Part shown: positions 38,813 through 54,694 of the stretch, piece after piece
How positions within the stretch are numbered: position 1 is the stretch's first letter
Layout of the letters: each line of letters opens with the position of its first letter
Assembly: GCA_002897115.2 (NCBI GenBank)
Contig: BCIH01000013.1
Location: 67,852 to 131,851 of the forward strand
From: Prototheca cutis
Taxonomy: Eukaryota > Chlorophyta > Trebouxiophyceae > Chlorellales > Chlorellaceae
Direction: 5' to 3'
DNA: 64,000 nucleotides
Translations under genes and position numbers: made by a program
Notes under the pieces: generated by a model
What the model saw: only the letters and a program-made list of their open reading frames with translations
What the model was told of the DNA's origin: nothing
The model's database searches: none

Positions 38813-41800
38813 TCAGTTGTCCGTGGAGGTGAACACAGGGGGGGAGCGGTGGTCCTCCGGATCGACATCCAAGCGGTCCGTTAAAGGCTCAAAGTACGCC
38901 TCCCGCGCCGCGCCGCGGTGTGTCACTTCCGCCCACTTGAACCGTGTCCAGTCCCAGGCCGCGATGATGGCGTCCAGCACCGCAAAGCCCGCGGCGGACA
39001 GTACGCCCACCACTGGCGCGGCCTTGTCGGCCAGCGCCTCCCGAGCCTGCGGGCCCAGGCACTGCGTCCACACCAGGCCCGCGCACACCAGTGCAATGCC
39101 CGTGAGGAGCAGGGTGACAAACACCAGGTAGACGACGCGGCGCCACCCAGACTTGCCCGTCCCACCACCGCCGCAGTCGGCGCCGTGCCGGCCGCCGCCC
39201 GAGCCGCCCTTGCCGTCCGTGTCCGGGATGACGGTCTTGGAGTTTTCACAGACATCGGCGTGCACGAGGCGCAGGTGCGTCTGCGAGGGGCGGTAGACGT
39301 CGTTGCCCCAGCGAGGGCACGACTGGCCCTCCAGCCCCGGGATACGCTCGCAGCCAGGACCCTCCTCGGCGCGCTGGAACCCGTACTCGCACTCCGTGTC
39401 GGCCTCGGCCACGCACGCGCAGCGCTCGCCCAGTTGCGGCACGGAGCGCGTCGCGGCCGCCACGGGCGGTGAATAGCAGACCACGTCGGGGCGCCGACGG
39501 CGATAGCTGACGTGCTGGCCTAGCAGGCAGGCTCCAGCAGTGGGCGCCTCCCACACCTCATAGTCCCCATCCGTGCACGCCTGGGAAGGTGGGTTTTTTC
39601 TTGTGGGGCTGAGAAGTTCATGACCCACGTTTCGATTTGTCCATGCCAACCCCAGTACCCGGAAACCGCCAGCGCCTACCCTGAGGTCTGTGCCGACGAG
39701 CTGGGGAATATCGATGACAAACATCTTGCCCGGGGGCCGCGCGCCGCCCTGGAACGTGCAGTCTGGGTGACGCTCCGTCTTGAGGCAGGCTGTGCCNTGG
39801 ACGAGGAACACCGTGCCCCCCTCCCCCGCTGCGGTGCGGATGTTGTCCACCAGGATGGCCTCGGGCAGCGTGATGTCATGCCAGCACCCGCCGGCGTCGG
39901 AGCTGAACCGCACCGTCTTTGTGGGGCCGTCGCTCGCATGCCCTGCGGCAACGACGATGTCACCTGCTGCGCCGACTTCATAGATCAGGGGCCGATCAGC
40001 GACGTCCGACCAGGTCAGTCCGCCGTCGGTGCTGGCCCATGTGCATGCCGCGCCCGCGGGACCCACGTCCAAATGCACGCCGGTGTTACCCGTTGCCAGC
40101 AACAGGCCCGGGGCGCTGGGAGGGCTGTACAGATTAGGCCGGGGTGCGGAGTTCGACGCCCAGCTGGTAGGGCCATGCAAATGCAGCGCGCATGCTGCAC
40201 GGTCAGATCCAGAAGGGCAGGCGTTGCACTGCGCGTAGCGAAATGCAGATGGCAACGCCAACGGCGCCCAGTCCGCCCCGCCGTTGCGACTGGCCCGCGT
40301 TTGGAGGTACTGGCCGTAGCGTGATGGAGAGCCGCCGCCAATTTGCTCGGGGTCGACGCGGTTGGCGACATACGCGCCGGGCAGACCTTCGATCCTCACA
40401 AAATCTGCCAAATAATCGCGTCGATACACGTTGGCAAGGCTCAGCGTGTGGTACGACGCGTTGTAGGCCGGCGCGTACGCGTCTGAGGTAGGCGAATCCG
40501 AGGTCGGACCCCGGGACCCTGGTTCGGCGTGGTCGGCCAGGACAAACGCCGCCTCACGGTCGTGGGTGTGCACCATGTTGTACCCGTCATCCTCAAGGTT
40601 GCTGGGCAGGCAAACCTCGGTGAAATCATCACCGTCCCAGTCGGAGACATACAGCGTCACGGTCCGTCCCGCCACCGCACGCTTGGGCACGGTGCGGCCC
40701 TTGCCGTCGGCGCCCAGCGGGCAGTCGGAGGGCACAGCCAGGTAGACTTTAGCTGCTACGATCTCAAACAGGTTGCCGCAGGGCACCATGCGCGCCACGG
40801 GCGCCGTGAAAAAGTCCAGACTCACGACGTAGTGAAGATCCTTGTCCCAGCCGGGGTACAGCGACTTGGCGCCGGCATCGCCCGCAAACACCGTCGCAAA
40901 AATCGTCTCGTCGGGTGTCGGCTTGCCCGCGTACCTATCGGAGTGGTAGGGATGGTGGCGGCGATACTAGCATTAAGCTGACTCAGGATGCTTGCGTGTT
41001 TTGACTGTTTGCTGGCTTGTTCATGCGCTTGGGCACCGGCCGACAGAGGGACAGACCACCACCACCACTGCAACTGCCCCCCCCCCCCCCCCCCAAACAC
41101 CAAAAAAAGCCACCGCATACATGGGCATCTTGGCGCCCCACTCAAAGTCGCGGAAGGAAGACACGTGGCCCTTGGATGCCGCCGTGAGGTTGCGCCACGA
41201 CGCACCAAAGTCCTGAGGGTTTGGACCAGCCAATTGGGTGTTTGCTTGCTGGTACAAGCGACAATCCCCAAAGAAACACAAGCAACATCAAAGCCAACAA
41301 CAATGAGCCACCTGCGTGACAAAGAGGTCGTAGCCGCAGTTGCTGCTGCGCTCGTACCACATACAGGACGGCCGCCGGGCCTTGGCCAGGATCCATTCGG
41401 GCTGCCGCGGGTGGAACCGGATCTCCTGTGTGCGTGCGGGGCAGGGAGGGGGGTGGTTGATCAGAGGGGTGGTCAGGTCTGTCGTGCAGCACCTGGGACC
41501 AAGCGCCCGGCCCAACACGATCTCACCTCCACGCACGCCGACCCACCTGATCAAAGCCCGTGGTGTTGCCTGGGGATCCAATAGCCGTAAAGGACTTGCC
41601 GCCGTCACGCGAGGCAAAGTGGTAGTTGCCGCGCCCCTGGGCCAGTAGGTGCTGCGGCAGCGCCGGCGACACATGGACGGCGGTGATGCCGAAATAGGGA
41701 AAGGAGCGGTCCGGCACCAGGTCGCGCAGCGTGTCGGTGATGTCATGCCAGCTGTCGGCACGGGAAGGGTCCTCTGTGCGCCAGAGCGGGCCGCCGAGAA

Positions 41801-54029: not shown

Positions 54030-54287
54030 AGGGTGTCCGCGGGGTTTTTGCGACCGATGATGGGTGCATGCAAGCTCCCAGGACACTCATGGTTTCGGGG
54101 ATGTCCCCTGCACAAGATGTAAAATGCGCCCTGCTGCGGACAGCCAAAGGATGTAACGGCTTGCCGGGGGTTGCAATGACCAGGCACTGCCCAAAACTTG
54201 ACAAGGTCACAGATCCCCTCCCGTCGTGACAGTCCCCCCCCCAATACGTAGCAAAAAGTCTGCGACCCCAAAATGGGGAAAATGGAA
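54030..54287. other. Intergenic
   Basis: Short stretch between the CHERP-like stop and the first permuted tRNA gene. The minus-strand TTTT at 54282-54279 within it is the likely pol III terminator of copy 1. Confidence 0.6.
54279..54282 (-). terminator. Pol III terminator of permuted tRNA copy 1
   Basis: TTTT on the minus strand, five bases past the pairing trailer of copy 1, in the position expected for RNA polymerase III termination. Confidence 0.65.
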
Positions 54288-54380
54288 TCAGCTGGCAGGG
54301 ACCTATTCTACCACTAGACCACCAGCGCTGTTAAGAGTTGCGCTGGCCGGGAATCGAACCCGGGTCTGGTCCGAAGCTGA
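54288..54380 (-). tRNA. Circularly permuted tRNA-Gly(GCC) gene, copy 1
   Basis: On the minus strand the 3' half of the tRNA comes first and the 5' half second. The 3' half (54373-54340, 34 nt) runs from position 38 through anticodon-stem GGACC, variable loop, T-arm CCGGG-TTCGATT-CCCGG and acceptor CCAGCGC. An 11-nt linker (54339-54329) starting with A (discriminator 73) leads into the 5' half (54328-54293, 36 nt): acceptor GCGCTGG, D-arm GTCTAGTGGTAGAAT, anticodon stem GGTCC and CTGCCA, which ends just after anticodon GCC. Acceptor (7 bp), anticodon (5 bp) and T (5 bp) stems pair perfectly. The flanks TCAGC (54380-54376) and GCTGA (54292-54288) are complementary, giving a bulge-helix-bulge-like site for splicing endonuclease at 37/38. 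Rejoining the ends and opening the linker yields a normal tRNA-Gly. CCA is not encoded. Confidence 0.95.
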
Positions 54381-54604
54381 GAGTGAGAAGCGAAGACAAC
54401 TCGATGCCACCGCATTACAAAAATGCCGGTCATAGCCAGCTAGGGCGGGNGGGTTGGGGGGGCGTCGGCACTCGGGATCGACGTTGCATGGCACCAAAAC
54501 GAGACAATACAGCGGCTCGAATGAGCAAAGTCCCCGAAATAAACACACAGGGTTCAGTAAAAACTGCGTAATGTGACAAAATTTGGGCAGGGACAAAATG
54601 TAAA
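54381..54604. other. Spacer between the two permuted tRNA genes
   Basis: About 220 bases without coding signal, one N. It must hold any upstream sequence of copy 1 and the terminator of copy 2. Apart from the tRNA parts and the pairing flank (GCTG), I see no extended similarity between the flanks of the two copies. Confidence 0.5.
54595..54598 (-). terminator. Pol III terminator of permuted tRNA copy 2
   Basis: TTTT on the minus strand, six bases past the pairing trailer of copy 2. Confidence 0.65.
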
Positions 54605-54694
54605 CAGCTGGCAGGGACCTATTCTACCACTAGACCACCAGCGCTCAGTGAGCTGCGCTGGCCGGGAATCGAACCCGGGTCTGGTCCGAAGCTG
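54605..54694 (-). tRNA. Circularly permuted tRNA-Gly(GCC) gene, copy 2
   Basis: Same arrangement as copy 1, 316 bases to the right and on the same strand. The 3' half is 54688-54655, the linker is 10 nt (54654-54645), and the 5' half is 54644-54609. The mature halves are identical to copy 1 base for base, whereas linkers and outer flanks differ. Here the leader CAGC (54694-54691) pairs with the trailer GCTG (54608-54605), a 4-bp helix next to the anticodon stem. The anticodon is GCC and the discriminator is A. The T-loop and D-loop sequences that form the B and A boxes are intact but in reversed order. Confidence 0.95.

Follow-up and report, generated by a model that had tools for sequence, protein, structure and literature searches.

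Circularly permuted tRNA-Gly(GCC) genes and a large set of permuted tRNA genes in the genome of Prototheca cutis

Results

We analysed a stretch of 64,000 nucleotides from a contig of Prototheca cutis (the window; position 1 is its first letter), the minus strand of which carries two loci (copy A, 54688-54609; copy B, 54373-54293) where tRNA-Gly(GCC) is encoded with its 3′ half first and its 5′ half second. Judging from sequence, we put the probability at roughly 0.95 that both are functional nuclear tRNA-Gly(GCC) genes of the circularly permuted kind (type II, 37/38), accounting for two of the genome's four and belonging to a group of no fewer than 38 permuted tRNA genes. The Gly pair is one case of a genome-wide gene architecture. 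Each copy reads CGGACC..CCAGCGC (positions 38-72), then A73 and a linker, then GCGCTGG..CTGCCA (positions 1-37), and the parts are as follows.

54689-54694, minus: copy A leader cagctt, the CAGC of which is able to pair with the trailer GCUG
54655-54688, minus: copy A 3′ half of tRNA-Gly(GCC), positions 38-72 (sequence and R1 match)
54654, minus: copy A putative discriminator A73 (A in all four Gly(GCC) copies)
54645-54653, minus: copy A linker, 9 nt, predicted to be excised from a circular RNA
54609-54644, minus: copy A 5′ half, positions 1-37, anticodon GCC (sequence and R1 match)
54605-54608, minus: copy A trailer gctg, the leader's partner
54595-54598, minus: copy A TTTT, probable Pol III terminator
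54374-54379, minus: copy B leader cagctt
54340-54373, minus: copy B 3′ half of tRNA-Gly(GCC), positions 38-72 (sequence and R1 match)
54339, minus: copy B putative discriminator A73
54329-54338, minus: copy B linker, 10 nt, presumably removed
54293-54328, minus: copy B 5′ half, positions 1-37, anticodon GCC (sequence and R1 match)
54289-54292, minus: copy B trailer gctg
54279-54282, minus: copy B TTTT, probable Pol III terminator

The first-pass annotation had placed the 3′ half (38-72) before the 5′ half (1-37) on the minus strand within 54288-54694, and both the sequence and the permuted-tRNA covariance model described below (R1) bear this out. Its perfect stems after reordering are found in both copies (7/7 pairs in the acceptor stem and 5/5 each in the T and anticodon stems), and it was right about the tRNA-Gly(GCC) identity, ARAGORN naming the reordered copies with the expected anticodon, and about the 37/38 junction, which comes from alignment to tRNA positions, cleavage itself being a prediction. 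The linker of 10-11 nt that it described does join the halves through the acceptor ends, but the first of these bases occupies the discriminator position (A73), which leaves linkers of 9 nt (gctcactga, copy A) and 10 nt (actcttaaca, copy B). The copies, called identical, are so in their exons; linkers and flanks differ except for short boundary elements, with no longer flank in common within the 30 nt examined on each side, and the starts lie 315 bp apart rather than the 316 bp first given. Neither copy has TTTT between its halves; it is located 3′ of the 5′ half. GC content along the window is 0.59-0.64. An open frame at 38813-40891 (minus strand), the relatives of which carry sortilin/VPS10 domains, has its closest named match in Auxenochlorella (67% identity), and such a best match of a window protein supports the trebouxiophyte source proposed earlier.

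No tRNA was reported anywhere in the 64-kb window by ARAGORN without introns or by Rfam at gathering thresholds, and ARAGORN with introns allowed returned nothing in the 3.5 kb around the Gly pair. For R1, seven conventional tRNAs from this genome were artificially permuted at 37/38 and used as the training set, which held no Gly exons. The linkers used for training came, unchanged or adapted, from natural permuted Gly genes, one of them copy A; this biases the score in favour of copy A, and linker agreement in R1 matches is therefore not independent. On both strands of the 64 kb, R1 returned the two copies (E = 5.2e-13 and 1.5e-10) and no further match at E <= 10; the covariance-model check proposed in the first-pass annotation thus finds exactly these two window loci.

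The four Gly(GCC) genes of the genome

The genome searched is an assembly of 23 contigs totalling 19,886,974 bases, probably a draft, in which N positions occur. With up to three mismatches allowed, the 33-nt 3′ half occurs at four sites genome-wide and a 30-nt stretch of the 5′ half also at four, the same four loci, and at each of them the halves stand in reversed order, so that all four Gly(GCC) loci are permuted. Whether the genome has a conventional tRNA-Gly(GCC) gene had been posed as a check, and none was found in half-sequence, motif, and tRNA family searches, the family search having scored 63 of 246 candidates.

Exons are identical in all four copies, as is the A at the discriminator place, whereas linkers and flanks have diverged. 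Among the last 30 leader positions only -1, -2, -4, -5, -6, and -11 are invariant, and among the first 30 trailer positions +1 to +4, +6, +12, and +13, the last two falling inside a T run in all four copies. The leader CAGC (CAGU in one copy) is able to pair with the trailer GCUG; the one change within this element, at leader -3, is C to U, and pairing with G+1 is still possible. This conserved junction footprint fits a processing signal. When the four precursors are folded at minimum energy, the outer helix, the acceptor stem, and the T stem form but the anticodon stem does not, and the folds are only modestly better than those of shuffled sequences (z = -1.8 to -2.6; Gly(TCC), z = -0.6). The outer leader-trailer helix is present in all four copies; a strict bulge-helix-bulge at the junction was not among the structures obtained.

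A genome-wide census

We scanned the genome with motifs independent of gene order, and fetched stretches were judged by a structure finder, by R1, and by eye, the exon ends of all 38 permuted genes being set by hand. Junctions inside the T arm or the D arm would be missed, because the scans need one of these arms intact. This partial census yielded at least 38 permuted genes covering 25 isoacceptors and 18 conventional genes covering 11 further isoacceptors, so that permuted genes account for 38 of the 56 genes and 25 of the 36 isoacceptors found, no isoacceptor being in both sets. All 38 permuted genes read as junction 37/38:

Gly: GCC (four), TCC, CCC
Pro: TGG
Ala: AGC (three), TGC, CGC (two)
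Cys: GCA
Ser: TGA, CGA
Gln: CTG (two), TTG
Leu: TAA, AAG
Arg: TCG, TCT, CCG
Ile: AAT (two), TAT
His: GTG
Val: TAC (anticodon stem 4/5)
Glu: CTC (four)
Asn: GTT (two)
Thr: AGT (two)
Tyr: GTA

Only permuted genes were found for Gly, Ala, Ile, Asn, Thr, Tyr, His, Gln, Glu, Cys, Ser, and Val. R1 matched 34 of the 38 at E <= 1e-7 (E-values are relative to the bases of each search), Pro TGG being near-identical to an R1 training sequence. For the remaining four (Leu AAG, Leu TAA, Ser TGA, and one Gln CTG; E = 1.6e-5 to 0.0045), the R1 scores overlap those of some conventional genes, and the assignment comes from structure and reordering.

The conventional set consists of 17 genes from the RF00005 family model and one read by eye:

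RF00005: Lys CTT (two), Arg ACG (two), Phe, Arg CCT, Met CAT
RF00005: Leu CAG (three), Leu CAA, Asp (three), Pro AGG (two), Pro CGG
By eye: intron-containing Leu TAG (L105; named Phe by ARAGORN)

We take the Met CAT gene to be initiator-like, judging by its T loop. Conventional genes may be undercounted, because RF00005 scored 63 of the 246 first-look candidates, and permuted genes may be undercounted too. The conventional Asp, Pro, and Leu genes carry introns in the anticodon region, which suggests that tRNA splicing is in use.

Yields differed among motifs. GGTTCRAWYCC had 76 sites (39 in the control), all of them looked at: 22 are permuted genes, 10 conventional genes, and one is tRNA-like (L111), the remainder being taken as chance. 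GGTTCRASYCC had 108 sites (112 in the control); of the 100 listed, 70 and one known Arg gene were examined, the 29 others being all of the A57 type. The D-arm word gave 16 sites (six in the control), of which seven are permuted genes, five conventional genes, and the remaining four 3-mismatch sites. Five tRNA genes (three permuted, two conventional) are among the seven sites of AGTTCGAWYCT (16 in the control), and its sites L164 and L166 had no R1 match. Two of the 40 TGTTCRAWYCA sites (18 in the control) are the Thr genes, and none of 12 others fetched had an R1 match; CGTTCRAWYCG had 34 sites, compared with 99 in the control. In these motif and family scans, which did not search by name, no gene was met for Trp, Lys(TTT), elongator Met, Val(AAC, CAC), Ser(AGA, GCT), Thr(TGT, CGT), or Glu(TTC).

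Controls and flanking signals

ARAGORN returned the expected anticodon for all 38 permuted genes when reordered, both window copies included, and for none as encoded; it also accepted 8 of 38 chimeras made of halves from different amino acids, and the reordering result is partly by construction because exon ends were set by hand. The structure finder gave 30 distinct matches on the fetched stretches and none on reversed sequences or on three dinucleotide-shuffle sets, a shuffle control that is lenient because the stretches were picked by a tRNA motif that shuffling destroys.

A TTTT starts 4-19 nt 3′ of the 5′ half in all 38 permuted genes, and TTTTT occurs within 40 nt in 32. By comparison, TTTT lies in the last 40 nt before the gene in 7 of 38 (TTTTT in two) and inside the gene in one (Arg TCG). 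Upstream AT content climbs to 0.57-0.61 between -48 and -37; no convincing common motif emerged there.

Leaders pair more strongly on average with their own trailers than with swapped ones (z = -2.59, -3.25, and -3.53 for 10, 12, and 15 nt), and the observed duplex mean over the 25 isoacceptors was reached by 1, 10, and 40 of 5000 shuffles for 15-, 12-, and 10-nt arms, respectively. Gene by gene, at most two foreign trailers pair as well in 14 of 38, and more than half do in 15 of 38, namely GlyCCC, ProTGG, AlaTGC, both AlaCGC, SerTGA, LeuTAA, both IleAAT, HisGTG, GluCTC_1, both AsnGTT, and both ThrAGT. The trailers of the two Gln(CTG) copies differ, and each pairs with its own leader better than any of 36 foreign trailers does.

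Discussion

Alternative readings of the loci

One alternative is that the loci are dead, rearranged pieces of conventional tRNA genes, with the tRNA supplied by a normal gene elsewhere. A sequence like a tRNA-Phe 3′ half, located close to a permuted Glu gene, would agree with this, and a conventional copy could sit in a gap of an assembly that holds N positions and is possibly incomplete. We nevertheless regard this as very improbable, since the searches made found no conventional Gly(GCC) gene, the exons of the four copies have stayed identical while their linkers diverged, the 38 permuted and 18 conventional genes have no isoacceptor in common, and T runs follow all 38. An assembly artefact is about equally improbable: one N position does lie between copies A and B, but the same order recurs at 38 places with different flanks and on many contigs, and the related Auxenochlorella has been reported with permuted tRNA genes in a section headed telomere-to-telomere assembly (PMC12636532, as excerpted).

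The least probable reading, with hardly any weight in our estimate, is that tandem conventional tRNAs were misread, so that each locus would combine the 3′ half of an upstream gene with the 5′ half of a downstream gene. A 2014 review (PMC3978253) gives tandem repeats of intron-containing tRNA genes as proposed ancestors of permuted genes, yet there are exactly four 3′ and four 5′ halves (at up to three mismatches), paired at the same loci, which refutes the misreading unless the assembly lost the outer halves, and the Gly copies have their TTTT 3′ of the 5′ half and not between the halves.

On a broader reading, the tRNA genes of this nuclear genome are probably permuted as a rule, with at least 25 isoacceptors coming from permuted genes only, and most translation would then depend on RNA circles and on Pol III working with a B box before the A box.

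Predicted processing

Algal permuted tRNAs are described as arising from one precursor that is cleaved at 37/38, closed into a circle by ligation, freed of the linker, probably by RNase P and tRNase Z, and given CCA (PMC3978253, in the text available). By analogy, this known pathway of permuted tRNAs is the most likely route here, and the anatomy of the loci fits it as described for red and green algae. RNA polymerase III would transcribe the 3′ half, linker, and 5′ half as a single RNA, and the leader-trailer helix beside the anticodon stem may aid the splicing endonuclease in cutting at 37/38. The cut ends would be ligated into a circular RNA, from which RNase P and tRNase Z would remove the linker, CCA being added afterward. 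The genome holds PF01974 (splicing endonuclease) at two loci and an RtcB ligase in four pieces at one locus.

Relation to known permuted genes

Permuted tRNA genes are a known family, even among trebouxiophytes. The first-pass annotation had suggested that the loci would extend the known range to that group; this is largely pre-empted, because permuted tRNA genes were reported in 2025 in Auxenochlorella, a trebouxiophyte (PMC12636532; preprint PMC12633428; both as excerpted). The related trebouxiophyte Auxenochlorella UTEX 250-A offers a close parallel, in that its tRNAscan-SE set was incomplete and permuted genes were then detected (PMC12636532); on the excerpted text, our comparison covers the presence of permuted genes, with counts, isoacceptors, and junctions outside it. 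Titles and abstract beginnings in the open-licence literature gave no report of permuted tRNAs for Prototheca and, among the matches listed, no trebouxiophyte besides Auxenochlorella.

Going by the available part of the 2014 review, 34 permuted tRNA genes were then known in seven species, with a maximum of 11 per species (PMC3978253). The type II genes of Ostreococcus and Micromonas resemble those described here in belonging to green algae, in their short intervening sequence, and in having the 37/38 junction (18 of 19), but a genome there has three to six of them (Ser, Leu, Cys, Arg, Asn, and iMet, with Gly absent from that account), against at least 38 here (PMC3978253). Cyanidioschyzon merolae likewise carries permuted tRNA genes in its nucleus, two of them Gly(CCC) genes whose linker has 7 nt and whose junction is 37/38, but in this red alga permuted genes make up 11 of 43 and their junctions fall at several positions, whereas here 38 of the 56 genes found are permuted and all read as 37/38 (PMC3978253). 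Chlorarachniophyte nucleomorphs have two permuted tRNA genes or none (PMC4494063, as excerpted). The scale, at least 38 in one genome, appears to be new, exceeding the 11 of 43 in C. merolae, unless Auxenochlorella, seen through the excerpt, shows the same.

The P. wickerhamii genome is said, from tRNAscan, to encode all tRNAs except Sec, and likewise those of A. protothecoides and Helicosporidium (PMC7941945, in the passages available). Such full sets are hard to square with many conventional genes being missing throughout the lineage.

Permuted tRNA genes have so far been treated as rarities; here one genome has at least 38, and for 25 isoacceptors no conventional gene was found. If the reading is true, Pol III recognition of inverted internal boxes, circularisation as a limit on tRNA supply, and the origin of permuted genes become testable, and standard annotation can overlook much of the tRNA set in such genomes.

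Further observations on individual genes

A near-transition pair for the origin of permutation is offered by the permuted Pro(TGG) gene (L035) and the intron-containing conventional Pro(CGG) gene (L020), the mature tRNAs of which score 98.6% alike, with the intron ends of Pro(CGG) chosen by hand. Their likeness perhaps reflects a recent switch of architecture or gene conversion. We considered whether permuted Pro(TGG) arose from the intron of Pro(CGG) and dropped the idea, since the two showed no likeness by eye. Two permuted Ala(CGC) genes (L054 and L087) have similar long linkers (46 and 44 nt), unlike the diverged Gly(GCC) linkers, and this similarity suggests a recent duplication. The four permuted Glu(CTC) genes (L061, L130, L141, and L150) have a long leader that is similar among them (CGAGGATCC..), the CGAGG of which could, by eye, pair with a trailer CCTCG. 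Upstream of the permuted Glu gene in L141, at about 329-391 on the minus strand, the stretch resembling a tRNA-Phe 3′ half may be either a lone fragment or an intron-containing gene. The tRNA-like sequence in L111 (about 180-248) is odd in that its acceptor arms match and ARAGORN gives it no name.
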